A DNA stretch of 64,000 nucleotides from Bradyrhizobium lablabi. GTDB lineage: Bacteria > Pseudomonadota > Alphaproteobacteria > Rhizobiales > Xanthobacteraceae. Below are positions 1-14,111 of this stretch, piece after piece. A model generated the notes under the pieces. That model ran no database searches and was not told where the DNA came from. It saw nothing but the letters and a program-made list of their open reading frames with translations. Made by a program: the position numbers and the translations under genes. The number at the start of each line of letters is the position of its first letter. Positions within the stretch are counted from its first letter, which is position 1. The stretch lies in NCBI RefSeq assembly GCF_900141755.1, contig NZ_LT670844.1, positions 930,001 to 994,000 of the forward strand. Direction: 5' to 3'.

Positions 1-853
1 CAAGTATTTCGTCGCAAGTGGGAATCCCACTCCGGTCACCGCCCGGGCAACCACCCGAATCCTTGATGCATTTCTTTTGCTTCTCCGTTGAGCTTGGTGC
101 GCCGGCGTCTAAATCATCTGAGGCTTGCCGCTGAAGCTGCAGGTCCGGTATCCGCGAGACGTCACCACGCGTCGATGTTTCGTTGGTTTCGGACACTTGG
201 TTGGTAACCTGGGCATGGGTTGTTGGCAGATTGGGAGATTTGTCACTTTTCTCGGCAACAAGTCCGTCACCCGAGCTCTGCTGAACAACGTGCACAAGCT
301 CATGTGCCAGCAATCGCCGGCCGGCGTCGGAGTGCGGCGCGAAGCGGCCGTTGCCGAACACGATGTTATTTCCGACAGTGTAGGCATCAGCCCGGACCTC
401 TCCCGCCGACTGTTCGGCCGCGGGCCCAGTGTGCACGCGCACGTGCGAAAAGTCGTAGGCGAACCTTCGTTCCATCTTCTCTCGTAATTCCGGTTGCAGC
501 GCCATGCCCGAACCGGCCAATACGGAATCCACACTGGGAGGCGCAAAATCGCTGTCGCGGTTGGGATACGCCGCAGAGCGCTGGATGCCCGCGGACACGG
601 AACCGGTCGGACCGGGTGACATCCCAGCCATCACCTGATCCGCGATCCGGTCTGCTTCCAATTCCAATGGACCGTTGCTCGCTCCTATGGTCAGCTTGGG
701 TTGAAACCTCGTTTTTGTCTTTTTGCATTCCTCGCACGTTGCACCCGCCATCGTATGATTGCCACAGGCGCATTTGCGCAGCAGGATCGCGCCGCCCGGC
801 GCGGCCAGGACCGTGCTTTGCTTTCGTGCCGTCGCCAGCGCACGCTCGCTCAT
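1..853 (-). CDS. DUF4157 domain protein of an eCIS locus (C-terminus beyond the window)
   Basis: I read this frame by hand. It starts with ATG at 853-851, overlaps the stop of the 86-residue gene by 4 nt (ATGA), and stays open to base 1, so at least 284 residues are coded and the C-terminus is missing. C28, C30, C40 and C43, with H33, form a small zinc-knuckle-like module. Next comes the hallmark DUF4157 segment: the text PLELEADRIADQVM, then ALQPELREKMERRF, then YDFSHVRVHT, then LLAHELVHVVQQ with HELVH at residues 184-188, a zincin-type HExxH motif. The family is known to accompany eCIS particles, and its members often carry a toxin domain after the DUF4157 part. Effector or cargo-linked role is inferred from context. 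Whatever follows residue 284 cannot be seen. Confidence 0.85.
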   Translation of the reverse strand, partial: MSERALATARKQSTVLAAPGGAILLRKCACGNHTMAGATCEECKKTKTRFQPKLTIGASNGPLELEADRIADQVMAGMSPGPTGSVSAGIQRSAAYPNRDSDFAPPSVDSVLAGSGMALQPELREKMERRFAYDFSHVRVHTGPAAEQSAGEVRADAYTVGNNIVFGNGRFAPHSDAGRRLLAHELVHVVQQSSGDGLVAEKSDKSPNLPTTHAQVTNQVSETNETSTRGDVSRIPDLQLQRQASDDLDAGAPSSTEKQKKCIKDSGGCPGGDRSGIPTCDEIL

Positions 854-1110
854 CGCTTTCCAACTCCCGCGAAAACCGATTGCGCGATCTGTTTCCCGAG
901 CTGCGCCGGAGCGACGCCGCGCGGTGCATGCACACTCGGCGCGCTTACACTCGGCAGCACGGCGCCTGCGGCAAGCTCGTGGCTGATACCCCCCTCGGAG
1001 AGCAGCCGGCCAAGTTCGGCCTCGATCGCCGCCTTGACCCGCGGCCCCTGCGCGCTCGTTACCGGCAAGCCGTCGAGAACCAGTCGTTCGATATGCAGGC
1101 GGATGTTCAT
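850..1110 (-). CDS. Small 86-residue protein in the eCIS operon
   Basis: This 86-residue ORF lies between the AAA+ ATPase and the DUF4157 gene and overlaps each by 4 nt, which argues that it is translated and belongs to the operon. It begins MNIRLHIERLVLDG and contains a Ser/Ala/Pro-rich middle. The N-terminal text, with a hydrophobic LVLDG segment followed by a helix of the type AAIEAELGRLL, resembles small proteins I have seen next to eCIS ATPases, but I cannot name a family. There is no signal peptide, membrane segment or cysteine pair. It could be an adaptor between the ATPase and the DUF4157 protein, which is inference only. Confidence 0.75.
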   Translation of the reverse strand: MNIRLHIERLVLDGLPVTSAQGPRVKAAIEAELGRLLSEGGISHELAAGAVLPSVSAPSVHAPRGVAPAQLGKQIAQSVFAGVGKR

Positions 1111-3095
1111 GCCACCACTCCGGTTTGTTCCAGCCAGTGGAAGTCGGTCTCGTTGACCGGACGATCGAGTTTCACGAACTCGGCCTTCGCCGCGGCAAGC
1201 GCGAATGACATGGTGACCACTGAGCCGGCGTCGGCGCTCAGGAAGGCCGCATTGAGGGCTGCGTTATGAATGCTGCCGCCAGTGAGGGTGAGCCGCGCCA
1301 GGCGATGATAGTCGAGCCCGCGAAGCGGGGTTTGCGCGGGAAACGCGAGCTGCCACATGCGGCGCCGCTCGGCGATGCCGGGAAACGGGAAGTTGACGAT
1401 GAAGCGCAGCCGGCGCGTGAATGCGACATCGAGCGAGCTGCGCAAATTGGTGGCGAGGATCGCGAGGCCCCGATAGGCCTCCATCCGCTGCAGCAAATAA
1501 TTGATCTCGATGTTGGCGCAGCGATCATGGCTGTCCTTGACATCGCTGCGCTTGCCGAACAGAGCATCCGCCTCGTCGAAGAACAGGATGGCGCCGCCGT
1601 CCTCGGCAGCATCGAACAGCCGGCGCAGGTTCTTCTCGGTCTCGCCGATATATTTCGAAACCACGGCGGAGAGATCGATGCGGTAAAGATTCAGCCGCAA
1701 CGCCTTGGCGATCACTTCCGCCGCCATGGTCTTGCCGGTGCCGCTCTCGCCGGAGAACAGCGCGCTGATGCCAAGCCCGCGATTGACCCTCTGGCCAAAC
1801 CCCCATTCGCCGTAGACCTTGCCGCGTTGCCTGACCTGCGCGGCTATCTGGCGGAGCTGGTCGGTCTGTTCGGCCGGCAGCACGATATCGTCGAACGACG
1901 CCTTCGGCTCGATGCGATGTGCCAGCGCGTCGAGCATCGGCCGCACCCGCGCGCTGCAGGAGTCCCACAATCGCGCAGCAAGCGGCGCTCCGGTCGTCTC
2001 GCGTTCCGATTTCACGGCCTCGGCGATCTGATGAATATCGACAATGTTGAGATCGAACTGGCTCGCCAGCAAGGCGGGGCTATCGGCGTCCGCCCCAACC
2101 AATTTTTTCCAGGCCTGCTGCTGCTCCTCCGTCGTCGGCCTGACGACGTCGACGATGTGCGACTCCCGCGGCAGGCGCGGCCAGGCCTCGCGGACCGCGA
2201 GCGCGATGAAGCCGTTGCACCGCGCCAGAAAGCGCCGCGCCGTTGCGGCGTGGGATTCGGATCCGTCGATGTCCTGCGCATCCACGTAAAGCGCAATCGG
2301 CAGCAGCATGCTTTCGCGCTGCCAAATACGCGCCAGGACCTCCAGATCGGCCGGCTGAGTGGGCAGCGAATCCGGCGACAGACGATAGAGCCGCCGCTGC
2401 ACGTCGCTGGCCGCAGACGCCGCGATCGATTGTTTTCCGGCGGAATCAGCGCCGAGCAACTGGACAATCGGAACCTGCGCATCGGCGCGCAGATTCCGCC
2501 ATTGCGAGGCGACGCTGTTTTGCAGCTTTCGCTGCGAAGCCGGCATTGCCTCGGAAAATTCGGGAGGTACAGTGCTTGTTAGGTATGGAGCCAGCCGGTC
2601 GTCGAGGTAGTTCAGACCCTTGAGATAGTTGACGATGCGCTCGTCGGCGCGCAACGCGCTTATCGTCAGTGCCTGCGCTCCCGGCTGATTGATCTCGATC
2701 AGTTTCCAGTAACGCAGCGGCCGCTCCGGTGAGAGCGCATCCCAGGCCGCGTCGTCGAAAATGGACAGCGCAAGTGCGAACGTCGGATAGATACGGGTGG
2801 GGTCGCCCTGCGCACTCGCAAACAGCGCCGAAAATCCGGTATCGAATTCGGCGGCCGCGCACATTAGCAAGAGGTTGCGCTCGAAATGCGACAGGCCCAG
2901 CGTTTGCGCGAGCAGTGTCAGCGCCGGCGGCACGCTTGCATTTGCTTCAGCCTTTGCGACCGCGTCCGCTGCGGCCGCAAGTTTGGCGTGCGGTCGTTTC
3001 TCGCCTACGCCCTGTTCCAGGCACAATTTCAGCCAGCTCAGCGCGGCCCACAAATGGCGTGCATTCGCTGCTTCCCATGCGGCGCTGTCGATCAT
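1107..3095 (-). CDS. AAA+ ATPase of the contractile injection system
   Basis: A 662-residue protein. The N-terminal 400 residues are helical and end in a winged AAA lid-like part. The C-terminal third is a classical AAA+ module with Walker A GESGTGKT near residues 448-455, Walker B ILFFDEAD near 501-507, a sensor-1 stretch LAILATN and an arginine-finger-like RRLRF. eCIS loci almost always encode one such ATPase (Afp15/Pvc15-like), thought to act in assembly or cargo handling in the cytoplasm. Its ATG overlaps the stop of the DUF4255 gene by 4 nt and its stop overlaps the 86-residue gene, so it is translationally coupled in the middle of the operon. All key catalytic residues look intact. Confidence 0.93.
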   Translation of the reverse strand: MIDSAAWEAANARHLWAALSWLKLCLEQGVGEKRPHAKLAAAADAVAKAEANASVPPALTLLAQTLGLSHFERNLLLMCAAAEFDTGFSALFASAQGDPTRIYPTFALALSIFDDAAWDALSPERPLRYWKLIEINQPGAQALTISALRADERIVNYLKGLNYLDDRLAPYLTSTVPPEFSEAMPASQRKLQNSVASQWRNLRADAQVPIVQLLGADSAGKQSIAASAASDVQRRLYRLSPDSLPTQPADLEVLARIWQRESMLLPIALYVDAQDIDGSESHAATARRFLARCNGFIALAVREAWPRLPRESHIVDVVRPTTEEQQQAWKKLVGADADSPALLASQFDLNIVDIHQIAEAVKSERETTGAPLAARLWDSCSARVRPMLDALAHRIEPKASFDDIVLPAEQTDQLRQIAAQVRQRGKVYGEWGFGQRVNRGLGISALFSGESGTGKTMAAEVIAKALRLNLYRIDLSAVVSKYIGETEKNLRRLFDAAEDGGAILFFDEADALFGKRSDVKDSHDRCANIEINYLLQRMEAYRGLAILATNLRSSLDVAFTRRLRFIVNFPFPGIAERRRMWQLAFPAQTPLRGLDYHRLARLTLTGGSIHNAALNAAFLSADAGSVVTMSFALAAAKAEFVKLDRPVNETDFHWLEQTGVVA

Positions 3096-4324
3096 TGAAT
3101 GGTGACCTTCTGTGTCGCATCGAACGTCGGTGGCGTCGTCGCATAATTGACCAATTGGCTGTCGACGCCGTCGACCCGCAGCCGGATCCAGAAATCCCCG
3201 GGCACGGCGACTGCGACGATAAAGGTCAAGTCGCCGGTCTGCGCGCTAAAACTCTCGGCCAGAATTTCGCGGCTGCCGAGCAGCAAGGCGACACGTTGTT
3301 CGGGACGCACCTCCGGCGAGCAGGTCAGATTCAGCTGCGCGTTGCCGTCCGTCGTGCGGCTTGCCGTCATCGGCAAGGCGCTGGTGATCCGCGGCGCGAT
3401 CGCCAGCGGCATTTCGTTGCTGGTGCGATCGGGCCCGCCATTGCCGCTGACCACGGCCGCAACTGTGTACATTCCCGCCGGCCAGTTCGCCGGATCGTTC
3501 GGGACTTTGACGGTCATCTGGGTGTCGGTGGCTCCGGCGTCGACCGGCAGCGTGATCGGAACGGCGAGACGCGCCGTGGCGAATTGAAGGGCGACCTGCG
3601 TGCCCGCGAGATTTTTGCCGGTGAACACCAGCAAGTCGCCGAGGCCCGCGCTCGGCTGATTGTTCGGCGGGGTCACCTGGTCGATCGTCGGGAACGGCGG
3701 AACGAGGCTCGCCTGGGCGATAACCCCACTGTCCGCCGGCCCGCGCGTCAAGACCGGAAGCGGCACGGGAGTTGCGCGCGTGCTTTCAATCAGCACCACG
3801 GCGGCTTCATAGGCGACCGAAAGCCGGTATTGGGTCTGGAAGCCAGTCCACAGCTTGGCGATCTCTTCCATCGAGAATGGTTGCAGGGTGAGACGCACAC
3901 GCTCGATCTGCGCCCAAAGGTCGTTTTTGGGATACGCCGCCTTGATTTCATCGGCACCCAGCAGCGGATGATCGTGCAGCGTGCTCATCGCCTGGCCCAT
4001 CAAATGGTGACTAAAAGGCCGCTTCGCATCGTTTTCCTGGCCAAACGCCGTGATGAGGTAATAGAGATTGAGCCCGAGAACCGGGGCAGCGCCGACGCCG
4101 GATCGCGTCAAGCCCGGAATGCCCATGTTGCGCCAGGAACCGCTCGGCAGAACATGATAGAGAAAGATATTGAGTTGATTGGCGTTGTTGCTGTTGTCCC
4201 TGGCGCGGTCGAGCGGCAGCATCGTCACCGTCGCATCTTGCAGATCGATATCGGTGTGCAGTCCGCTGATGAGCAGATTGTGCAATGTCGCCGTGACGGC
4301 GGCGATCGCTGTACCGTTGCTCAT
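3092..4324 (-). CDS. DUF4255 protein, probable tail-terminator (Pvc16-like)
   Basis: A 410-residue protein. Residues 1 to about 190 match the DUF4255 pattern: MSNGTAIAAVTATLHNLL at the start, then NQLNIFLYHVLPSGSWRN and a segment LGLNLYYLITAFG. In eCIS and R-type particles this domain belongs to the protein that caps the distal end of tube and sheath. The C-terminal half (about 215-410) has the look of two IPT/TIG-type Ig-like beta domains, for example DLLVFTGKNLAGTQV. Such an extension is longer than the minimal cap, which suggests an extra binding or decorating role. It overlaps the genes on both sides by 4 nt. Function is inferred from family and position. Confidence 0.88.
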   Translation of the reverse strand: MSNGTAIAAVTATLHNLLISGLHTDIDLQDATVTMLPLDRARDNSNNANQLNIFLYHVLPSGSWRNMGIPGLTRSGVGAAPVLGLNLYYLITAFGQENDAKRPFSHHLMGQAMSTLHDHPLLGADEIKAAYPKNDLWAQIERVRLTLQPFSMEEIAKLWTGFQTQYRLSVAYEAAVVLIESTRATPVPLPVLTRGPADSGVIAQASLVPPFPTIDQVTPPNNQPSAGLGDLLVFTGKNLAGTQVALQFATARLAVPITLPVDAGATDTQMTVKVPNDPANWPAGMYTVAAVVSGNGGPDRTSNEMPLAIAPRITSALPMTASRTTDGNAQLNLTCSPEVRPEQRVALLLGSREILAESFSAQTGDLTFIVAVAVPGDFWIRLRVDGVDSQLVNYATTPPTFDATQKVTIQ

Positions 4325-5391
4325 GAGCCGCTCCGCCCCGAACGCTGACGTAAATAGTCTTCCAGACTGGTGGCCCCTGACGAAGGCCGGGGTTTTTGGC
4401 GCGGCTCGGCCACACTCGTGGCACGGACCTCGATCCTCCCGATCGTTACCTCAATGGTCGAAGGCGAGGCCTGTGAGACGCGCTGATCCCACGGCTCGCG
4501 CTGCTCTCGTTCCCGTCTTGAGGGCGTAGCGAGGGTTGCGTGCGTCGCTTCGGATGTGGACCTTTGCGCATCCGCGGGCCGGGGCTTGGTGGCGAGAACA
4601 GATAGCCGGCCGATCGCCGATCCATCCTCGGTTTCAGATGGCAGCGATCTCTCGCGCTGCCGAATCTGCCGCGCCAACTCGGGCTCTATTGGTCCCACCC
4701 GCCCGGGATCGGGCTTCGACCGCTCGCGCGGCAAAGCGAACTCGGCAGCTGTCGCCTCCAAACGCGCGGTCGGAGCGTCCTGACCGAATGGACGTCGCAA
4801 ATCGGGTCGGTGCAATGCCGTTCGCAGCTGCTGCGATGCGGCGCCGTCGGTCTGTCCGGGTGCCGCGCGGGATTCAATACCGGTTTCATTGGGCTTGTCG
4901 TTGCTTCGGCCCGGTAACGCCGCACTTTCATTCCCGCCGGTCTTGAACGGACTTTCTCGACCTGGTCGTTTTCGACTCGGGCCCGGCTGTTCCGCTAAAA
5001 CCGTTGGCTCACTTTGCGCGCCATTTTCATGCGAAGACATCGGGTGGGTCTCGCCGTCTTCGGAGACTGTATCCTTCGCAGCACGCGCAGCGCTCGTTGC
5101 CGCCGGGTGACGTGGAATAAGCGCAGGTCCGTCATTGTCGTCCGGGTCGGTCGCGGTGGCATCGAACGTCGCCGGAGATTGCGGCCGTCGATCCGGGGCA
5201 AGCGCAGCCGCGGCGCGCCGGGGGGTGAAGCCTTCAAATTCGACCTCGACGCTCTCGTCCAGCGGAGCCGGCGCGGACATTTCCCAACCCGGCGCACGGG
5301 TCGGAGGGTCGAACACCGAAGACAGGCGGGGTCTGACGGAAAGCTCCGGCGCCAGCGCCCGCGTTACGAGACTTGCCAGGTACTCACTCAT
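4321..5391 (-). CDS. Disordered eCIS-associated protein, 356 residues
   Basis: I place the start at ATG 5391, overlapping the upstream stop by 4 nt; an in-frame ATG at 5460 would overlap the chaperone-like gene by 73 nt and is less likely. Residues 1-35 look helical (MSEYLASLVTRALAPEL). About residues 40-310 are rich in Pro, Ser, Arg, Glu and Asp and look disordered. The last 46 residues carry a compact motif, TIEVTIGRIEVRA at about 312-324, followed by TSLEDYLRQRSG. I recall that C-terminal beta plus helix signature from unnamed proteins of other eCIS loci; I have not checked it. The shape, with short folded ends and a long linker, would suit a tether or measuring role, which is speculative. 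Confidence 0.8.
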   Translation of the reverse strand: MSEYLASLVTRALAPELSVRPRLSSVFDPPTRAPGWEMSAPAPLDESVEVEFEGFTPRRAAAALAPDRRPQSPATFDATATDPDDNDGPALIPRHPAATSAARAAKDTVSEDGETHPMSSHENGAQSEPTVLAEQPGPSRKRPGRESPFKTGGNESAALPGRSNDKPNETGIESRAAPGQTDGAASQQLRTALHRPDLRRPFGQDAPTARLEATAAEFALPRERSKPDPGRVGPIEPELARQIRQRERSLPSETEDGSAIGRLSVLATKPRPADAQRSTSEATHATLATPSRREREQREPWDQRVSQASPSTIEVTIGRIEVRATSVAEPRQKPRPSSGATSLEDYLRQRSGRSGS

Positions 5392-6140
5392 GCGTCCAAC
5401 ATGTCCAGATAACATTGGCGCCGCATCGGACTGAGCGCCAGGATGTCGCCTTCCGGCCATCCATAGGCTCGCGCGAGACGATGCACATCGCGCAGAACAC
5501 CGATCGCCCAGGCGTCGATTTCACTCCAGAAATAGGAGACGATATCGAACGGGGCCCGCCAGTTCGCTTCGCATTCGGCGCAATTGAGATTGAGCCGAAC
5601 CTCGCCTTGCGGATCGGCACGCGACATCTGCTGGTCGAGCGCGTCTATCAGCGCTCGCGGCAACTCGGCGGCTGAAATTTCCCGATCGCCGTGCAGCGCT
5701 CGCTGCAGCACGCGTTCGATGAGATGGCGCTTGCTCTCGTCGACCGAGCCGCCTCCAGGCAGCGCAAGCAGGTCGAGACTGTTTGGAAGGCGAAATGCAA
5801 TGTCGTATCCGTCGAGGCGCAGCGACAGCCCCTTAGCGCGCTCTTGCTGTTCCGTCCCGCCCGTTGGCGCAACGACGATGTCGTCGGCGTCGAATTCCAT
5901 CTCAAGGTTGGCCTGGCAGGCCGGACAGCGCGTCACGGCCGCGAGCCGCGCCCCGAACATTTTCCGGCGCAACGTCAGCAGCAAATGATCGCGCGCCCCG
6001 ATCGTCAGCCGCGCGATCTGGTCCGGCCGCATGTCGACGCAAGCCGCGGACAATAGCGCCAAGGCGCGGCCGGTCGGCCGCGGCGCCGCCCGCCCGTGCT
6101 CCCATGCCGCGAGCAGGTCCTGTGTCGAGGGGACTTGCAT
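5388..6140 (-). CDS. T4-type baseplate / hub-assembly-chaperone-like protein
   Basis: A 250-residue protein starting at ATG 6140 (MQVPSTQDLLAAWEHG), 4 nt after the tube gene stop. An earlier in-frame ATG at 6323 would lie inside the tube gene and is rejected. Two Cys-x2-Cys pairs, CPAC at 72-75 and CAEC at 187-190, probably bind one zinc. The N-terminal helix with RALALLSAACVDM and the C-terminal YGWPEGDILALSPMRRQCYLDML resemble the T4-type baseplate hub assembly chaperone family found right after tube genes in eCIS clusters. The job is probably in baseplate assembly in the cytoplasm. The family call is by resemblance, so moderate. Confidence 0.8.
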   Translation of the reverse strand: MQVPSTQDLLAAWEHGRAAPRPTGRALALLSAACVDMRPDQIARLTIGARDHLLLTLRRKMFGARLAAVTRCPACQANLEMEFDADDIVVAPTGGTEQQERAKGLSLRLDGYDIAFRLPNSLDLLALPGGGSVDESKRHLIERVLQRALHGDREISAAELPRALIDALDQQMSRADPQGEVRLNLNCAECEANWRAPFDIVSYFWSEIDAWAIGVLRDVHRLARAYGWPEGDILALSPMRRQCYLDMLDA

Positions 6141-6144
6141 CGCA

Positions 6145-6672
6145 TCACGCCGCCGGCACCGTGAACGTCGGCTCGGTCGGCTCGACGACGTCGGTGTCCC
6201 GTTCCCAGCCCTCGTTCTCCAGTTTGATATGCTGGATGGCCACCGCATTGGCGTTGGCGTCGAGATCGGGCAACGACTGATATTCCGACACCCAGCAGCG
6301 ATAGATCTTGTAGGTGATGGCAAGCTGGCCGGCCTCGTTGTAGACCTCCAGCAGAAGGTCCTTGCGGAAATCCTTCAGCGACGTCTCGCTGCCGAGAGCT
6401 GCGCCGTAGTGCCAGATCTTGTTTGCCCATTTTTCAAATTCGGTATCGTGGGTCACGCCGCGCTCGAGGGTGATCGCCTCATATTCGGTGCGGCCGGGAG
6501 ATTTGCGGCTGCTGGAGGGATCGCCGCCTTCGCGATGCTTGACCACTTCGGTGGTCCGCTTCAATCCGCCGACCTTGCTGATGCCGGCGACGTACTTGCC
6601 GTCCCATTTGACCCTGAACTTGAAGTTCTTGTAGGGGTCGAAGCGCGTTGCGTTCACACTGAACTCGGCCAT
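6145..6672 (-). CDS. Contractile tail tube protein (gp19 family)
   Basis: A 175-residue protein with the layout of the T4 gp19-like tail tube family: an early beta motif FKFRVKWDGKYVAGISKVGG, then the charged hairpin TTEVVKHREGGDPSSSRKSPG, then ITLERGVTHDTEFEKWANKI and the end segment IKLENEGWERD. Tube proteins of this size stack as hexameric rings to make the inner needle of contractile particles. It follows the sheath gene with a 16-nt gap and precedes the chaperone-like gene. Only one tube gene is in the window; the second tube or tube-initiator gene common in eCIS may be further left. Confidence 0.93.
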   Translation of the reverse strand: MAEFSVNATRFDPYKNFKFRVKWDGKYVAGISKVGGLKRTTEVVKHREGGDPSSSRKSPGRTEYEAITLERGVTHDTEFEKWANKIWHYGAALGSETSLKDFRKDLLLEVYNEAGQLAITYKIYRCWVSEYQSLPDLDANANAVAIQHIKLENEGWERDTDVVEPTEPTFTVPAA

Positions 6673-6688
6673 AAGTTATTTCCCTCTG

Positions 6689-8443
6689 TCAGGTCAGGAC
6701 GTTGCCGGCGATCTGCTGAATCTGAAGCACGACAAACTCGGCCGGCTTCAGCGGCGCAAACCCGACGCGAATGTTGACGATCCCGAGATCGATATCGTTC
6801 TGCGTGGTGGTTTCCTTGTCGCATTTGACGAAATACGCGGCCGCGGGCGTCTGACCCTGGAAAGCTCCCTTCACGAACAGATTGTGCATGAACGCGCCGA
6901 CATTGAGCCTGATCTGCGCCCATAGCGGCTCGTCGTTCGGTTCGAACACGACCCACTGGGTGCCGCGAAACAGGCTTTCCTCGATGTAAAGCGCGAGCCG
7001 GCGCACCGGGATGTATTTGTACTCGTCCGCCATCTGGTCGGCGCCAGTCAATGTGCGCGCGCCCCAGACCACGTTGCCGTAAACTGGAAAGTTTCGCAGA
7101 CAGTTGATGCCGAGCTGATTGAGCGACCCGTTCTCATCGTTGGTCAGGTTGACCGCGAGCCCGCTGATGCCGGTCAGGCTGGCATCGAGGCCGGCTGGCG
7201 CCTTCCAGACACCGCGTTGGGCGTCGGTCGCCGACATGGCGCCGGCGATGAAACCGCAGGGAACGAAGGTGTCGAACTGACCCGTCAGCAGATCGGATGC
7301 GATCACGCGGGGGAAGTACAGCGCGGCGTTTCGTGCCTTGGCGCCGGTAAGATTGAGACTGCCCAGCCCGTTCTTCGCGGTGTTGGCGGCCGTAACGGGA
7401 TTGGCGCTCCACGCAGCCGGCGGATCGACAATCAGCATCGCGCGCCGCGCCTGACAATAGCCCATTGCGGCCTGCAAGACAGTCGAACTGATGTCGCCTC
7501 CCCGCGTATCCGGAGGAATGCACAGCAGGTTAAAGAGGTCGGCTGTATCAAGCGCATAGAGCCCGGTCTTGTTCGCCATGTCTCCTTCAAAGTCAGCATC
7601 GCCGAGTGGTTGACCGTCGTCGCCTCCGCTGTTCGCGGGAGGGCTGCCGGCGCCACCGCCACCGCCGGCACCACCGGCTGCGGCACTCGCTGCTCCGCCG
7701 GTGCCCGCCGGCGCGGCTGTGCCACTCGCAGTTCCACTACCGCCTCCTGCCGCTCCTCCAGTCGAGGCCGTGCCGCCGGCGGCGGGAGCCGTGGCCGTCG
7801 GAGCCGGCGGCGGCTGCGGGGTCTTTGTCGGCAAATTGGGCGTTCCATCCGCGTTCAACGGAACGCGAACAAGTTGAGAGGATTGCAGAAGCACGCGGTC
7901 GACCCGCTGCGCCCTGCCAGCCGCAACGGGTACGTCCTTGTCTTGCTTCACCGACAGATTGATAAATCGCTCCCGGCTGACGGTCTGTCCATTAGCCGTG
8001 AGGGTCACCGTCAGATTGAAGAGATCGGCTGCCTTCAAGCCATATCGGCCAGCGATCCCGTCCGTAATGTTGTTGGTATCGATGGCGGCCGCGAGCCCGC
8101 TAAACCAGCTTCCTGGACTAGCGGCATTGAGCGTCAAGCTGTCGGCGGTCACCTGCCCAATTCCGGTGCCGGAGGCTGGCGCCTTGAAAAGACGCACGAT
8201 GATCGCCTGGCCTCCGCCGTTGCGGAAAAAATCCGCGACGGCATAGCTCATTGGCCGGTCGATCCCGAGACCGCCGAACTGCCGCTCAAAATCCGCAAAG
8301 CTATTGATCGTGACCGGCGTATTGATCGGACCGGAGATCGCGCGCCCGAGAAACGCCGTGATCGATGTCGCGACGCCAGCGATGGTACGGACGCCGCTTG
8401 GAATCTCTTCGACGTAAACGCCAGGATAGGTCAGCACAGCCAT
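6689..8443 (-). CDS. Contractile tail sheath protein with a large Gly/Ala/Pro insertion
   Basis: A 584-residue sheath protein. I chose ATG 8443, giving MAVLTYPGVYVEEIPSGV, the standard sheath N-terminus; an AAGAGGAG ribosome site lies about 9 nt upstream (8453-8460 complement). The N-terminal region has TSITAFLGRAISGP and FGGLGIDRPMSYAVADFFRNGG. The C-terminal region has LRNFPVYGNVVWGARTL, YKYIPVRRLALYIEES and GFAPLKPAEFVVLQIQQIAG, all typical of phage_sheath_1 proteins. Residues 205-277 (about 7613-7831) are a low-complexity stretch of Gly, Ala, Ser, Pro and Thr, in the variable domain that faces outward in known sheaths. The protein would form the contracting outer cylinder. Confidence 0.95.
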   Translation of the reverse strand: MAVLTYPGVYVEEIPSGVRTIAGVATSITAFLGRAISGPINTPVTINSFADFERQFGGLGIDRPMSYAVADFFRNGGGQAIIVRLFKAPASGTGIGQVTADSLTLNAASPGSWFSGLAAAIDTNNITDGIAGRYGLKAADLFNLTVTLTANGQTVSRERFINLSVKQDKDVPVAAGRAQRVDRVLLQSSQLVRVPLNADGTPNLPTKTPQPPPAPTATAPAAGGTASTGGAAGGGSGTASGTAAPAGTGGAASAAAGGAGGGGGAGSPPANSGGDDGQPLGDADFEGDMANKTGLYALDTADLFNLLCIPPDTRGGDISSTVLQAAMGYCQARRAMLIVDPPAAWSANPVTAANTAKNGLGSLNLTGAKARNAALYFPRVIASDLLTGQFDTFVPCGFIAGAMSATDAQRGVWKAPAGLDASLTGISGLAVNLTNDENGSLNQLGINCLRNFPVYGNVVWGARTLTGADQMADEYKYIPVRRLALYIEESLFRGTQWVVFEPNDEPLWAQIRLNVGAFMHNLFVKGAFQGQTPAAAYFVKCDKETTTQNDIDLGIVNIRVGFAPLKPAEFVVLQIQQIAGNVLT

Positions 8444-8452
8444 CGAGGTTTT

Positions 8453-8460
8453 CTCCTCTT
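8453..8460 (-). promoter_or_regulatory. Ribosome binding site of the sheath gene
   Basis: The complement reads AAGAGGAG, about 9 nt before ATG 8443. It settles the sheath start against the upstream ATG at 8464, which has no such site in front of it. Confidence 0.75.
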
Positions 8461-8625
8461 GCAATATCTGTTGGCAGCGAACGATCGATAGAGCCCGAAG
8501 GTCAAAGCGAACGCCCGGCTCGATGGCCTCGCGTCAGCGTTGTGAAATGCTTCTCTCGCGTTGTTACCGACGTCCCGTCGAATGGAACGCCGCCGTCATT
8601 ATTCATTGATCAAAGCCGGTCGGGT

Positions 8626-9876
8626 TCAGCGCGCATACCAGGGGATACCAACATCCCTTCCGTACTCCCGTTCGAGATTCCTGATCGTGGATTCAAAATC
8701 GGAGGCCCGCCTCGGCCTCGGCTTCGATTCCCTCGATTCTTGTGACTTGGTTTCCCGCGGTTTCGTCTCCTGCGGCTTCGCCTCCTGCGATCGCACGTCC
8801 TGCAATTCCTGGTTCAAGCGCGCAATCGTGTGCTCCTGCGCGTCCATCTGCTGCTTGCTCTGTTCGAGATCCGCGGCGGTTGCGGCCTGCTTTTGCTGAA
8901 GGCTCTTGATTGTCTCCTGCGCGTCCGACAACTGCCGTTGCGCGTCATAACTCGATCCTGCACCTGCAGTCGTCGGTTGCGACTTAAGTTGCTCCTGGGC
9001 TGTCTTGAAATCATGGTTGAGATTGTCATAGGCCTCGTGCAACGATCGCAACTCATCTTGCAATCCTCGGTTGCTCTGCTCCGACTGGTTCAGTCTGTCC
9101 CGTGTTTCGCTGACGAGGGCGGACTGGTCGGCTTTCGGCGCTCCGCTTTCCGTACCGTGAAAGAAATAGCCGCCCGCGCCACCAGCGCCGGCGAACAGCG
9201 CCGCGATGATGGACATCACCAGCGGACTGAACTGCCGCTTCGCCGGGGAAGATGGGGCCCCGTCCGGCTTTGACCCTCCCGGCGGGGCGACAGCCGAGTT
9301 GGCGAATTTCGCTCGCAGTATGTCGAAGTCTTTCTTAAGAACGTCGAACAGCTTGTCCTTCTGCGCGATCAATCCCTGGTGGTCGGCGGTCAGCCTTTGT
9401 ATGACCCCATCGTGCTCCTGTTTCAGGACTGCAATGGCGCGCTCGGCCGCCGCCTGGCTCTCCTTGATCCGATTCTCGTGTTGCGTTGCGACGTCGGCGA
9501 CCTCGGAATGCTTGGTCTCGAGTTTTTTCTCCAGTTCGGCAAGCGCTTGCGCACTTTCCGAAAGGTGCTGTTTCAGCCTTGATTCCTCGGCATTCCACGC
9601 CTCGGCTTCTCGTCGCGCCTGAGCCGTGGCCTGCGCTATTGCCGCCTCGTGATCCTGCTTTGCGGTTTCGAGATCGTGCTCCAGCTTGGCAACGTCCCGT
9701 TCACTTGCAGCGAGCAATTTTTTCAATCGCTCCAAATCTGTCGCGTCGGAATCGGAAGCTGCGGATGCCGGTGCAGGCACAGGTGCAGCCGAGACCAGGC
9801 GGGTTCCACACTCCTGGCAGAAACCCCTCCCGGCAGGGTTGTCATGCTGACACTTGTGACACCTGATGGTCGCCAT
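8626..9876 (-). CDS. Zinc-ribbon, coiled-coil, single-pass membrane protein upstream of the sheath gene
   Basis: A 416-residue protein with C6, C9, C20 and C23 as an N-terminal zinc ribbon (RCHKCQ then FCQECG). Residues 45-190 are a long heptad-rich coiled coil with many Lys, Glu and Ala. A membrane segment spans about 217-239 (LVMSIIAALFAGAGGAGGYFF). A second coiled coil covers about 250-370, followed by a low-complexity KPQE/KPRE tail and a final helix ending GIPWYAR. By topology the zinc ribbon and first coil could be cytoplasmic. It is the first gene of the minus-strand string, separated from the sheath gene by 182 nt, so it may be its own unit. I do not recognise a named family. Membrane anchoring of the particle or cargo docking are possible roles. 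Confidence 0.85.
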   Translation of the reverse strand: MATIRCHKCQHDNPAGRGFCQECGTRLVSAAPVPAPASAASDSDATDLERLKKLLAASERDVAKLEHDLETAKQDHEAAIAQATAQARREAEAWNAEESRLKQHLSESAQALAELEKKLETKHSEVADVATQHENRIKESQAAAERAIAVLKQEHDGVIQRLTADHQGLIAQKDKLFDVLKKDFDILRAKFANSAVAPPGGSKPDGAPSSPAKRQFSPLVMSIIAALFAGAGGAGGYFFHGTESGAPKADQSALVSETRDRLNQSEQSNRGLQDELRSLHEAYDNLNHDFKTAQEQLKSQPTTAGAGSSYDAQRQLSDAQETIKSLQQKQAATAADLEQSKQQMDAQEHTIARLNQELQDVRSQEAKPQETKPRETKSQESRESKPRPRRASDFESTIRNLEREYGRDVGIPWYAR

Positions 9877-10382: not shown

Positions 10383-11954
10383 ATGATTATAAAGAGAATA
10401 GCCCTTGGCCTGCTGGCCGGGGTAGCCCTTGGCGCGACCGCCGAGGCAGCCGATATCGACCACGTCCTGCTGATCAGCGTGGACGGATTGCACGCGCTCG
10501 ACGTGGCGAACTATGTCGAAGCGCATCCGAACTCCGCCCTGGCCGAATTGTCCGAACACGGCGTCACTTACAGCAATGCCCGCACGCCCGCGAACTCCGA
10601 TTCGTTCCCCGGTCTGTTGGCATTGGTGACCGGCGGATCGCCGATCACCCACGGTCTGTTCTACGATGTCAGCTATGATCGCGCGTTGTTCGCTCCTGAC
10701 AACGTGACGTGCAAGGGCCCGGCCGGCAACATGATGGTGTTCGACGAAAGCGTCGATCAGTACAACGGCAACGTTTCCCTGAACAAAATCGATCCGGCGA
10801 AGCTGCCGCGTGGACGCAACGAGTTCGGCCAGTGCGTTGCGGTATTTCCGCACAATGCGATCAGGACCAATACGATCTTCGAAGTGGTCAAGAGCAAGGG
10901 CGGCCGCACCGCGTGGGCCGACAAGCACCCGGCCTACGATCTCGTCAATGGTCCTTCCGGCAAGGGCGTGGACGATCTCTACACCCCGGAAATCACCAAC
11001 GTCGGTGGCCTCGACAACACCGTCAGCGTCGATTGCACGGTTGCCAATGATCAGCTGAAAGTGGCGGGCATCATCAATGAAATCAACGGCCTCAAGCATG
11101 ATGGCTCGCCCGGCGGCGGTACCCCGACGGTGTTCGGAATGAACTTCCAGGCGGTCAGCGTCGGGCAAAAGCTCGCCCACGACAACAGCAACGGCAGTTG
11201 CCTGCAGAGCACCCATACCGGCAAGGTCGGCGGCTACCTCGACGGCGCCGGGACACCGACCGAAGTGCTGGCGTTTGGACTGCAGAAGACCGATGAAGCC
11301 CTGGGCAGCATGATCCAGGCACTCAAGCAGCGCGGCATCTACAATTCCACGCTGTTTATGGTCAGCGCCAAGCACGGCCAGTCGCCGATCAACCCGGTCA
11401 AGATCAACAAGCCGGGCCATTTCGCCGACCTCGTCGCGACGCTGCCGGATGCAGCCAGCAATCCCGGCGGCATCGCCATCGCCAACGCCAACGCCTGCTC
11501 TACCGGCTCGTGCGGTTTCGTCCAGGACGACGATATCGCGCTGATCTGGCTGCAGGATCCAAGCCAGACCAAGGCCGTGACCGACTATCTGAACGCCAAC
11601 GCCAAGGCCCTGTTCATCGATGAAGTCCTTAGCGGCGATGAGCTGGAGCTCAAATTCAACAGTCCGGCGCACGACAGCCGCGTGCCGGATGTCATCGTTC
11701 AGCCGATCTACGGCACCGTCTACACGGGGTCGACGGCGAAGAACGCCGAGCACGGCGGAATGAGCTTCGCCGACACCAATGTCGGGCTGGTCGTCTCCAA
11801 CCCGCGCTTCCCGAGAACGGTGTTGAAAACCCCGGTGCTTACCTCGCAGGTCGCGCCGACGATCCTGCAGGCGCTCGACATCGAGCCCGAGGAGCTCAAG
11901 TCGGTGCGGGTCGAACATACTCCGGTGCTGCCCGGCATGTGGGACAACCGCTGA
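10383..11954 (+). CDS. Secreted alkaline-phosphatase-superfamily phosphodiesterase
   Basis: A 523-residue protein with a Sec signal peptide (MIIKRIALGLLAGVALGATAEAA). The mature part opens with DIDHVLLISVDGLHALD, where D34 is the usual first metal ligand of nucleotide pyrophosphatase/sulfatase-like enzymes. The following NSDSFPGLLALVTGG holds the probable Ser nucleophile (S72 or S74). Later SAKHGQSP and NAEHGGMS carry the metal-binding histidines; in the first, the Asp usually seen before His is replaced by Lys. It is monocistronic, ends before a strong terminator and is followed by another secreted phosphoesterase and the type II secretion genes, so T2SS export is plausible. The substrate is unknown. 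Confidence 0.87.
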   Translation: MIIKRIALGLLAGVALGATAEAADIDHVLLISVDGLHALDVANYVEAHPNSALAELSEHGVTYSNARTPANSDSFPGLLALVTGGSPITHGLFYDVSYDRALFAPDNVTCKGPAGNMMVFDESVDQYNGNVSLNKIDPAKLPRGRNEFGQCVAVFPHNAIRTNTIFEVVKSKGGRTAWADKHPAYDLVNGPSGKGVDDLYTPEITNVGGLDNTVSVDCTVANDQLKVAGIINEINGLKHDGSPGGGTPTVFGMNFQAVSVGQKLAHDNSNGSCLQSTHTGKVGGYLDGAGTPTEVLAFGLQKTDEALGSMIQALKQRGIYNSTLFMVSAKHGQSPINPVKINKPGHFADLVATLPDAASNPGGIAIANANACSTGSCGFVQDDDIALIWLQDPSQTKAVTDYLNANAKALFIDEVLSGDELELKFNSPAHDSRVPDVIVQPIYGTVYTGSTAKNAEHGGMSFADTNVGLVVSNPRFPRTVLKTPVLTSQVAPTILQALDIEPEELKSVRVEHTPVLPGMWDNR

Positions 11955-11982
11955 GTCAATTAAAGGCAAGACAAAGTTCTGG

Positions 11983-12012
11983 AGGGGCTCCGCATCCGCG
12001 GTGCCCCTTTTT
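11983..12012 (+). terminator. Rho-independent terminator
   Basis: AGGGGC and GCCCCT pair as the lower stem (11983-11988 with 12003-12008), a T-T mismatch follows, then CCGC pairs with GCGG around an ATCC loop. A run of five T follows, with one C before two more T. It closes the phosphodiesterase gene 28 nt after its stop codon. Confidence 0.9.
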
Positions 12013-12269
12013 CTTTGCATGACCATTTCAAGGACTATTTGCGACAGCGGCTTCGCTCCAGCGCTAAATTTTTCGACGCGCTCCTGGAATAATTTCAATG
12101 ATGCATTGCCATGACCTTGTAGCCTCTGACTTATTTAAGCAGATGTCACAAATTTTTCGTCCGGCTGTGACCCGGCTCTGAAAAATTCCGCGCGGCACCT
12201 CTCCGGTCGCCACTCGCCACTATCGTGTCATTTCTTTAAATTCAACTCTTCCAGAAGGAGGCAATCACA

Positions 12270-14111
12270 ATGCGTTTGCCAACAGCCCTAGGTTTGGTAT
12301 CCGCTCTGGCCCTTGCGGTCGCGGGTGCAAGCGCCGTCGCCGACGATGATCACCGCCGCGATTCGGATGATTTCCATCACGTCCATACCGCAACACCGAT
12401 CAAGCATGTCGTTGTGATCTTCCAGGAAAACGTCTCGTTTGATCATTATTTCGGGACCTATCCCAACGCATTGAACCTGTCGGGCGAGACACCGTTCACG
12501 GCGAAAAAGCACACGCCGAAAGTCAACAACCTCGCCAACCCGCTCGACGTGAACAATGGTTTCGTTCCGCTCACGGGCATCGACCTGCTCAACCACAATC
12601 CGAACAGCAATCCCAACGTCCCTCTCCCGCCCGACAACGCCAAGACCAACGGCGCCGGCGCCGCGAACCCGTTCCGCCTGTCGCCGTCGCAAGTGTTGAC
12701 CGCGGATCAGGGCCACAATGAAAGCCCCGAAGAAAGCGCCTACGACAACGGCAAGATGGACGGCTTCCCGGCCTATGTCGGAACCCAGGGACCGCCGCCG
12801 GCCGGGATCGGCAGCAAGGGGCTGGTGATGGGGTATTTCGACGGCAATACCGTCACCGCGCTCTGGAACTACGCCCAGCATTTCGCCTTGAACGACAACA
12901 ACTATACGACGCAGTTCGGCCCTTCGACGCCGGGCGCGCTCAACCTGATCTCGGGTCAGACCAACGGCATCGCCGCGACCTTGAACGTTCTGGGTACCTC
13001 CAACAAACTGCTGCATTCCACCCACGAGGCCTTCGGCGACCCCGGCCAGCTCGCCAGCAACATCACCGAAATCGGCGATGGCGATCCGCTGCTCGACGTG
13101 TGCTCTAATGGCACGATCGATCAGGTGACGATGGCCGGCAAAAACATCGGCGATCTCCTCAATGAAAAGGGCATCACCTGGGGTTCGTTCATGGGCGGAT
13201 TCGATCTCGGCATCGTCAATGCGAACGGCACGAAAGGCTGCGCGCGCGAAACCGACCCGACTGCGCTGGGCACACCGGCGTTTACGTCGGTCGACTACAT
13301 TCCGCATCACGCCTGGTTCCAGTATTATGCGTCGACCCGGAATCCGACCCATGCCCGTCCGAGTTCGGTCGAGGCGATCGGTCACACCCTGATCCCGCAC
13401 ACCAACATGCCGGATCTGGCCAATCACAACTACGACATCCATGACTTCTTCGACGCGCTCAAGGGGGGCAACCTGCCGGCCGTGAGCTTCCTGAAGGCGC
13501 CCGCGTTTCAAGACGGCCATGCCGGCTATTCTGACCCGCTCGACGAACAGCATTTCGTGGTGAGCGTCATCAACGCGTTGCAGAAGAGCCCGGAATGGTC
13601 GGAAACTGCTGTCATCATTGAATATGACGACTCCGATGGCTGGTACGACCATCAGATGCCGCCGATCGTGAATCCTTCGTTCAGCGCGGCGGTGGATACC
13701 CTCAACGGCCCCGGCGTCTGCAATACGAGCAATGGCTTCCAGCAGGGAAAAACCACGCCGGCAGCACCGCTCAACGGCACTTTCGGCCAGCCGGAATGGG
13801 GTCGCTGCGGTTACGGAACCCGCATGCCGCTCTTGGTGATTTCGCCTTTTGCGAAGCGCAACCATGTCGACCACACCCTGACCGACCAGACCTCGGTGCT
13901 CCGCTTCATCGAAGACAACTGGCTGTCGGGTGAGCGCATTCAAACGGGCGGCTCGTTCGATACCATTGCCGGCTCCCTCAACAACATGTTCGACTTCGAC
14001 GATCGGGACGAAGACCACCCGCGCAAGCTGATCCTCGACGAGGCGACGGGCGTTGTGGTCTCGGCTTCCGGAGGCGGCGACGATCGGGATCACGATCACG
14101 ATCGCCACTAA
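12270..14111 (+). CDS. Secreted phosphoesterase (phospholipase C / acid phosphatase family)
   Basis: A 613-residue protein with a signal peptide (MRLPTALGLVSALALAVAGASAVA) and a strong AGAAGGAGG ribosome site about 9 nt before the ATG. The mature part has IKHVVVIFQENVSFDHYFGTYP, the signature start of the phosphoesterase family PF04185 (bacterial phospholipase C and AcpA-type acid phosphatases); the Glu-Asn pair and the later DDSDGWYDH and GYGTRMPLLVISP segments are metal-site and core motifs. The C-terminus ends in a tail of alternating Asp and His, possibly metal-binding. It lies between another secreted phosphatase-like gene and the T2SS cluster. Whether it prefers lipids or phosphomonoesters cannot be told. 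Confidence 0.9.
   Translation: MRLPTALGLVSALALAVAGASAVADDDHRRDSDDFHHVHTATPIKHVVVIFQENVSFDHYFGTYPNALNLSGETPFTAKKHTPKVNNLANPLDVNNGFVPLTGIDLLNHNPNSNPNVPLPPDNAKTNGAGAANPFRLSPSQVLTADQGHNESPEESAYDNGKMDGFPAYVGTQGPPPAGIGSKGLVMGYFDGNTVTALWNYAQHFALNDNNYTTQFGPSTPGALNLISGQTNGIAATLNVLGTSNKLLHSTHEAFGDPGQLASNITEIGDGDPLLDVCSNGTIDQVTMAGKNIGDLLNEKGITWGSFMGGFDLGIVNANGTKGCARETDPTALGTPAFTSVDYIPHHAWFQYYASTRNPTHARPSSVEAIGHTLIPHTNMPDLANHNYDIHDFFDALKGGNLPAVSFLKAPAFQDGHAGYSDPLDEQHFVVSVINALQKSPEWSETAVIIEYDDSDGWYDHQMPPIVNPSFSAAVDTLNGPGVCNTSNGFQQGKTTPAAPLNGTFGQPEWGRCGYGTRMPLLVISPFAKRNHVDHTLTDQTSVLRFIEDNWLSGERIQTGGSFDTIAGSLNNMFDFDDRDEDHPRKLILDEATGVVVSASGGGDDRDHDHDRH

Follow-up and report, generated by a model that had tools for sequence, protein, structure and literature searches.

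The window analysed here, a stretch of 64,000 nucleotides from the closed, single-contig chromosome of Bradyrhizobium lablabi (C1:930001-994000 of 7,909,999 bases), contains at its left end the first genes of a cluster for a contractile injection system (CIS). The cluster is a complete chromosomal CIS of the extracellular (eCIS) lineage, with a baseplate of the DUF6519/gp48-like kind, a fibre that consists only of its baseplate anchor, and a DUF4157 effector with an exchangeable C-terminal part; the explanation that we build on this, with its inferred functions, has as a whole a probability of about 0.6. Within the eCIS lineage the system is of the DUF6519 ('eBAP5') type, found in many phyla. 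The term eCIS is used here for lineage and not for mode of action, since the DUF6519 protein ends after its anchor and no other fibre gene is seen in the cluster. New features are the anchor-only state of the fibre, a TelC-like effector, and a membrane-type protein, specific to this lineage, whose gene neighbours that of the sheath; for all three we offer functions as hypotheses.

The cluster encodes all core parts of an injection device

From the sheath to the DUF6519 gene, the cluster comprises 18 genes over 22.7 kb, all on the minus strand and bounded by metabolic genes. Sheath, tube, gp25, baseplate J, a spike with a PAAR-type tip, Pvc16 cap, AAA+ ATPase and DUF4157 protein are present in one locus, judged by the eCIS gene-content criteria of PMC8213781 (this and the other papers cited by PMC number are drawn on through the parts available to us). 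At nine of the 17 junctions the genes overlap by 4 bases (in one case after correction of a start), and the widest gap measures 60 bases.

Within the window, the sheath gene (6689..8464; 591 residues as called, with the ATG of residue 8 as likely start) matches PF04984/PF17482 (E 8e-10, 2e-9). It is followed by the tube gene of the T4 gp19 family (6145..6672; 175 residues; PF06841, E 5e-46) and a T4_baseplate family gene (5388..6140; 250 residues; PF12322, E 5e-12), whose start was set from a relative (L127) inside an open frame beginning at 6323. The adjacent proline-rich protein (4321..5391), with a start inferred from the 4-base overlap in a frame that begins at 5460, has no Pfam match; its ends are conserved and its middle is variable, and a tape-measure-like role is a guess. 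Next come a Pvc16-type cap or terminator (3092..4324; 410 residues; Pvc16_N PF14065, E 1e-45), an AAA+ ATPase with a winged-helix domain in the Afp15/Pvc15-like place (1107..3095; 662 residues; PF00004, E 8e-26), the 86-residue protein s86 (850..1110), and the DUF4157/eCIS_core effector (698 residues; PF13699, E 3e-31). The window holds the first 284 residues of the effector (1..853), and the whole gene spans C1:928757-930853.

The original prediction, made from the window alone, had recognised a tightly coupled set of sheath, tube, baseplate-chaperone-like, DUF4255, AAA and DUF4157 genes. All of these have Pfam matches; the baseplate-chaperone-like protein is the T4_baseplate protein, and DUF4255 is presumably Pvc16_N. 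The missing baseplate and spike genes, for which it considered a place to the left, lie directly beyond base 1 (genome coordinates): CIS_tube/Afp7-like (928043-928696; CIS_tube match just under cut-off), LysM/tail-X-like (927684-928046; weak tail-X match), hub (926537-927691), OB spike (925995-926540), DUF4280 PAAR-like (925658-925981; just under cut-off), gp25 (925297-925653; over cut-off), two baseplate J genes (922513-925293 and 919337-922516; Baseplate_J/TIGR02243, both over cut-off), gp48-like (917160-919340; weak Mu-gp48 match) and DUF6519 (915723-917147; 474 residues; E 4e-62, far over cut-off). Among these genes the VgrG-related match is weak and the Phage_base_V match exceeds the cut-off. 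Labels such as Afp7 and LysM for weakly matched genes are ones we take partly from eCIS gene order; the order of the tail-X, VgrG-related and Mu-gp48 genes is conserved in two other genomes, G007 and G022. By gene content, a full injection device of the eCIS lineage, with all core parts unbroken in one run, is thus present in this soil- or plant-type alphaproteobacterium, as had been proposed. Across the whole genome, profile searches find the sheath family once and Phage_base_V once, the latter inside the cluster.

The system recurs in the genus and across phyla

A sheath query matches 6 of 60 genomes, including its own and one at E 5e-4 only. Gene order in G007 and G022 is the same as in the window cluster. 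Two other Bradyrhizobium genomes (G019, G031; L023-L026) have a CIS of another kind, which includes two sheath-type genes. The tube query finds at least 530 relatives in genome contigs, of which the best 80, 80-92% identical, were kept. These 80 loci span Pseudomonadota, Chloroflexota, Acidobacteriota, Verrucomicrobiota, Cyanobacteriota, Myxococcota, Actinomycetota, Bacteroidota, Armatimonadota and archaea, and the gene order recurs in them as far as the flanks reach.

The nearest solved sheaths are those of the Streptomyces coelicolor CIS (8bky/9gtp, E 2e-73) and 8bl4/9gts, all from two Streptomyces papers. The nearest solved tube is 7b5h, the structure of the thylakoid-anchored CIS (tCIS) (PMC12923769). 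No eCIS study in Bradyrhizobium was found in the open-licence literature, in the parts available; the mention there is of a cited Bradyrhizobium type VI secretion system.

The DUF6519 fibre ends after its anchor

DUF6519 (eBAP5) is described as the baseplate anchor of a fibre, behind which macroglobulin shafts, beta-helices and lectins follow (PMC12923769). As in those systems, the DUF6519 gene of the cluster has gp25, baseplate J and a Tail_P2_I/gp48-like gene upstream of it, and DUF4157, Pvc16 and AAA+ genes are present. In contrast to them, its product stands alone, without macroglobulin, lectin or beta-helix extensions, and the cluster has two baseplate J genes, the second of which is said in the available parts of that paper to be largely lacking in eBAP5 systems. 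The 474-residue protein has no internal stop and ends after the anchor domain, so that the receptor-binding tail fibre that marks an eCIS by mode of action is not seen.

The same end point is found in G095, G103 and G104 (464-465 residues), while the proteins of G007, G022, G221 and G222 reach 1060-1109 residues and match both DUF6519 and Beta_helix. G022, G221 and G222 lie close together in the sheath tree, which gives two long-fibre lineages. In the genus sample of 195 genomes, 12 exceed the cut-off (G035, below it, is not counted): six are anchor-only (G000, which is the window's own genome, G095, G103, G104, G112, G215) and six long (G007, G022, G175, G198, G203, G204). By contig and place, G175 is identical with G222 and G204 with G221; for G198 and G203 the class comes from frame length alone.

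The DUF6519 family is present in the loci of 50 of 50 and of 22 of 25 genomes. Among 76 classified loci (three of them L004, L128 and L020), 34 are anchor-only and 42 long, by frame lengths of at most about 740 and at least about 830 residues, partly checked by reading the stretches. Seven of the 80 tube loci have no class: three without a match (L039, L068, L077), two fragmented (L050, L056), one at a contig end (L060) and one intermediate at 700 residues (L096). On a sheath tree built by a quick method from 79 rows, leaving out sheaths that were too short (L039, L052, L060, L067, L087, L102) and a copy of L079 (L022), 9 changes are required to account for the anchor-only label, of which starred branches force 8; this figure may be too high if sheaths have been exchanged.

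In 20 stretches read, including that of the intermediate G266, no named fibre gene follows the anchor, based on crude gene calls and Pfam checks of five following proteins. A 493-residue protein without Pfam match after the anchor of Arthrobacter sp. AK04 could be a fibre, and in G215 a 1070-residue frame, outside the domain scan, follows the anchor. Two proteins considered as CisA-like proved to be otherwise: the one after the Calothrix anchor is a DUF2252 protein, and the one after the Hydrogenophilales anchor a GTPase. In Rhodanobacteraceae (L178-L182, L195, L196), the anchor-only proteins end in lysine/alanine-rich tails.

One rival to our reading is an ordinary released eCIS, in which the short DUF6519 protein itself, or the gp48-like protein with its second half, binds a receptor and lysis frees the particles against other bacteria. 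We consider this a serious contender, if somewhat short of an even chance. DUF6519 has an inserted domain (PMC12923769), and several other genera keep anchor-only fibres, which implies that the state is viable. The gp48-like second half reads by eye like a beta-helix in a protein conserved over nearly its whole length, but it has no Pfam beta-helix match. Long-fibre systems possess this half just as well (in G007 with about 35% identity over residues 29-726), so that it is no substitute for a fibre.

Extracellular action, as assumed in the original prediction, does not follow from the sequence: the sole fibre-type gene found is anchor-only, and the nearest solved sheaths belong to Streptomyces structures reported as cytoplasmic. 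If anchor-only DUF6519 systems truly have no receptor-binding part, many systems now termed extracellular on their gene content (34 of the 76 classified loci) may work otherwise. Bradyrhizobium, a culturable and genetically tractable genus, has relatives with and without the fibre extension (six each of 12), which makes the fibre question testable.

The effector carries a probable TelC-like domain

In four sister systems, three different C-termini stand behind one effector N-terminus. The C-terminal part is shown, on protein sequence, to be exchangeable. The model of the C-terminal domain in the window's effector has a predicted local distance difference test (pLDDT) score of 96.1, and TelC ranks first for it in both Foldseek, with a weak score, and VIA (7.8 against 3.6 for the next row, collinear over domain residues 6-323). 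Residues H455, D496 and D535 are invariant in 60 of 60 aligned proteins and lie on three successive helices, as placed by the alignment and the domain model. A motif count gives 147 of 151 proteins and leaves aside seven other proteins of the cluster (P0002-P0008). In lipocone proteins, polar residues on H2, H3 and H4 are ancestrally His, Glu and Asp (PMC12419801, PMC5555719), a pattern that the modelled His/Asp/Asp arrangement recalls.

TelC, a lipid II phosphatase toxin (PMC5555719, PMC12419801), shares with the effector domain, as modelled, a helical make-up with a beta hairpin, and also the position of a polymorphic C-terminal toxin. Unlike the effector, TelC relies on a type VII system for its export; it has one hairpin where the effector model has two, and its specific Asp is not seen by eye in the effector. 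We consider the domain to be probably a phosphoesterase of the TelC/lipocone-like kind, with lipid II or another lipid-linked head group as its substrate. The bacterial envelope would then be the most likely victim, and the target would be sought among bacteria, not plants. The plant contact raised in the original prediction is not established, the best structural match being to an antibacterial toxin domain.

That the domain is instead an enzyme of another kind or a toxin without enzyme activity, perhaps directed at eukaryotes, is quite conceivable, although we do not favour it. The Foldseek score is weak, the domain shows no detectable sequence similarity to TelC, and Pfam has no match for it. 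Against this stand the gap in the VIA scores, the collinear match and the peptidoglycan-binding domains fused to two of 60 effector relatives. PADLOC has no match for the domain, and a viral fold comparison gives none at E 0.001 or better.

In the literature searched, within the parts available, we found no TelC/lipocone-type effector linked to eCIS, and eCIS, DUF4157 and lipid II do not occur together among the matches listed. The main text of the lipocone paper does not contain 'DUF4157', 'contractile' or 'PVC'. A second DUF4157/eCIS_core protein, a 551-residue frame, lies far from the cluster (C1:4576504-4578159, plus strand; L177:6504-8159); it is preceded by a 284-residue protein with a hydrophobic stretch and is a possible orphan effector. 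At the effector place of the anchor-only cluster in G112 (L206, C2:412596-419690), a 2364-residue open frame has a weak DUF4157-like match.

ZnTM as a candidate membrane anchor

We propose that sheath and tube would assemble on the baseplate in the cytoplasm, that the AAA+ protein, perhaps with s86, would load the effector, and that contraction would deliver it. A part for s86 in loading is a guess from gene position; the protein has no Pfam or NCBIfam match. It occurs in 64 of the 76 loci, of which 30 belong to the 34 anchor-only ones and 34 to the 42 long ones. An s86-ATPase fusion, considered for some relatives, was discarded when the long frames gave no ATPase match.

A receptor-binding fibre was not found, so the system must owe its attachment to something else. 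The gene 161 bases upstream of the sheath (8626..9876, minus strand) encodes a 416-residue protein, here called ZnTM, with an N-terminal zinc ribbon, a coiled coil, a glycine-rich hydrophobic stretch at about residues 216-234, a second coiled coil and a conserved C-terminal tail. A protein search returns 32 members including the window's own, mostly metagenomic, and none was found in viral contigs. In an alignment of 15, the hydrophobic stretch and the tail are conserved; hydropathy peaks are 1.27-1.94 (n=15), the N-side flank is positive, and this simple scale suggests a cytoplasmic N-terminus. Full-length ZnTM occurs in four of the 195 genus genomes (G000, G095, G103, G104), each time just upstream of the sheath and with an anchor-only fibre, while none of the six long-fibre genomes has a match. 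The other 15 matches cover at most about 60 residues of the zinc-ribbon end.

ZnTM could dock the device at the membrane of the producing cell, in a way comparable to CisA in Streptomyces. This may be the single most likely of several attachment routes, a choice that we make tentatively. Precedents for action at a membrane are CisA (PMC12237407) and the tCIS (PMC8894136). The Streptomyces type IId CIS with CisA (PMC10066040, PMC12237407) has the nearest solved sheath, no receptor-binding fibre found and a cluster gene for a protein predicted to cross the membrane once, to which ZnTM is likened by layout alone. It differs in having cis1a and cis1b, where the cluster genes scanned here include one gp19-type tube gene plus the CIS_tube-like protein. 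The DUF6519 anchor and the PAAR-like gene also set the present cluster apart, and CisA follows the baseplate genes, whereas ZnTM precedes the sheath. The Anabaena tCIS (PMC8894136) has the nearest solved tube and is a precedent for membrane anchoring, but is anchored by the fibre-type Cis13 and a Cis12 extension.

The association of ZnTM with anchor-only fibres is not general. The anchor-only G112 shows no comparable gene upstream of the sheath, and in G215 other membrane-type proteins and an Amidase_2-like protein take that place. In a rough look at other anchor-only genera, no ZnTM-type gene was noted upstream of the sheath. With anchor-only systems such as G112 managing without a ZnTM-type protein, membrane docking stays conjectural. 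Still less do we commit ourselves to the full picture of a fibre-less Gram-negative CIS that sits at its own inner membrane via ZnTM and fires a lipid-II-attacking effector outward or on itself, and that would match, in rhizobia, the CisA system of Streptomyces; taken as a whole, this is unlikely.

ZnTM could instead be a release or lysis factor of the holin type, or a neighbour without a role in firing, which we find doubtful. The glycine-rich hydrophobic stretch and the 161-base gap to the sheath would fit this, as would the G215 genes in the ZnTM place, which look like a lysis set. On the other hand, the window showed no amidase-type gene beside ZnTM, and a zinc ribbon with long coiled coils is unlike a holin.

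The G215 set upstream of the sheath (L209:8998-11126, minus strand) consists of membrane-type proteins of 338 and 167 residues and the Amidase_2-like protein, under cut-off; it is possibly a lysis or docking set. Caballeronia and Paraburkholderia clusters encode, after the anchor, a coiled-coil protein that is rich in cysteine and has a hydrophobic stretch rich in glycine (P0160, P0161; peaks 1.15 and 1.66); it is similar to ZnTM in layout, with no sequence link found.

Genomic setting

A prophage remnant or R-tailocin is very improbable: tail genes of this kind are phage-derived, but Pvc16, AAA+, DUF4157 and DUF6519 are conserved as a unit across phyla, and neither capsid or terminase genes among the left flank genes scanned nor a lack of baseplate and spike genes was found. 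That the window has no head genes, as originally stated, holds for the flank genes scanned beside the cluster, with window positions of about 14-64 kb lying outside the scan.

The cluster has a GC (guanine plus cytosine) content of 0.616, compared with 0.618-0.633 in the flanks. On the left are five metabolic genes and two small open reading frames without match, on the right two phosphoesterase-type genes. In a search for the empty insertion site, UPRTase and GTP cyclohydrolase genes are found together in eight relatives; none of the right-flank genes tested falls within the stretches fetched. The two right-hand genes, Phosphodiest and Phosphoesterase (window 10383-14111, plus strand), point away from the cluster and are separated from it by 506 bases.
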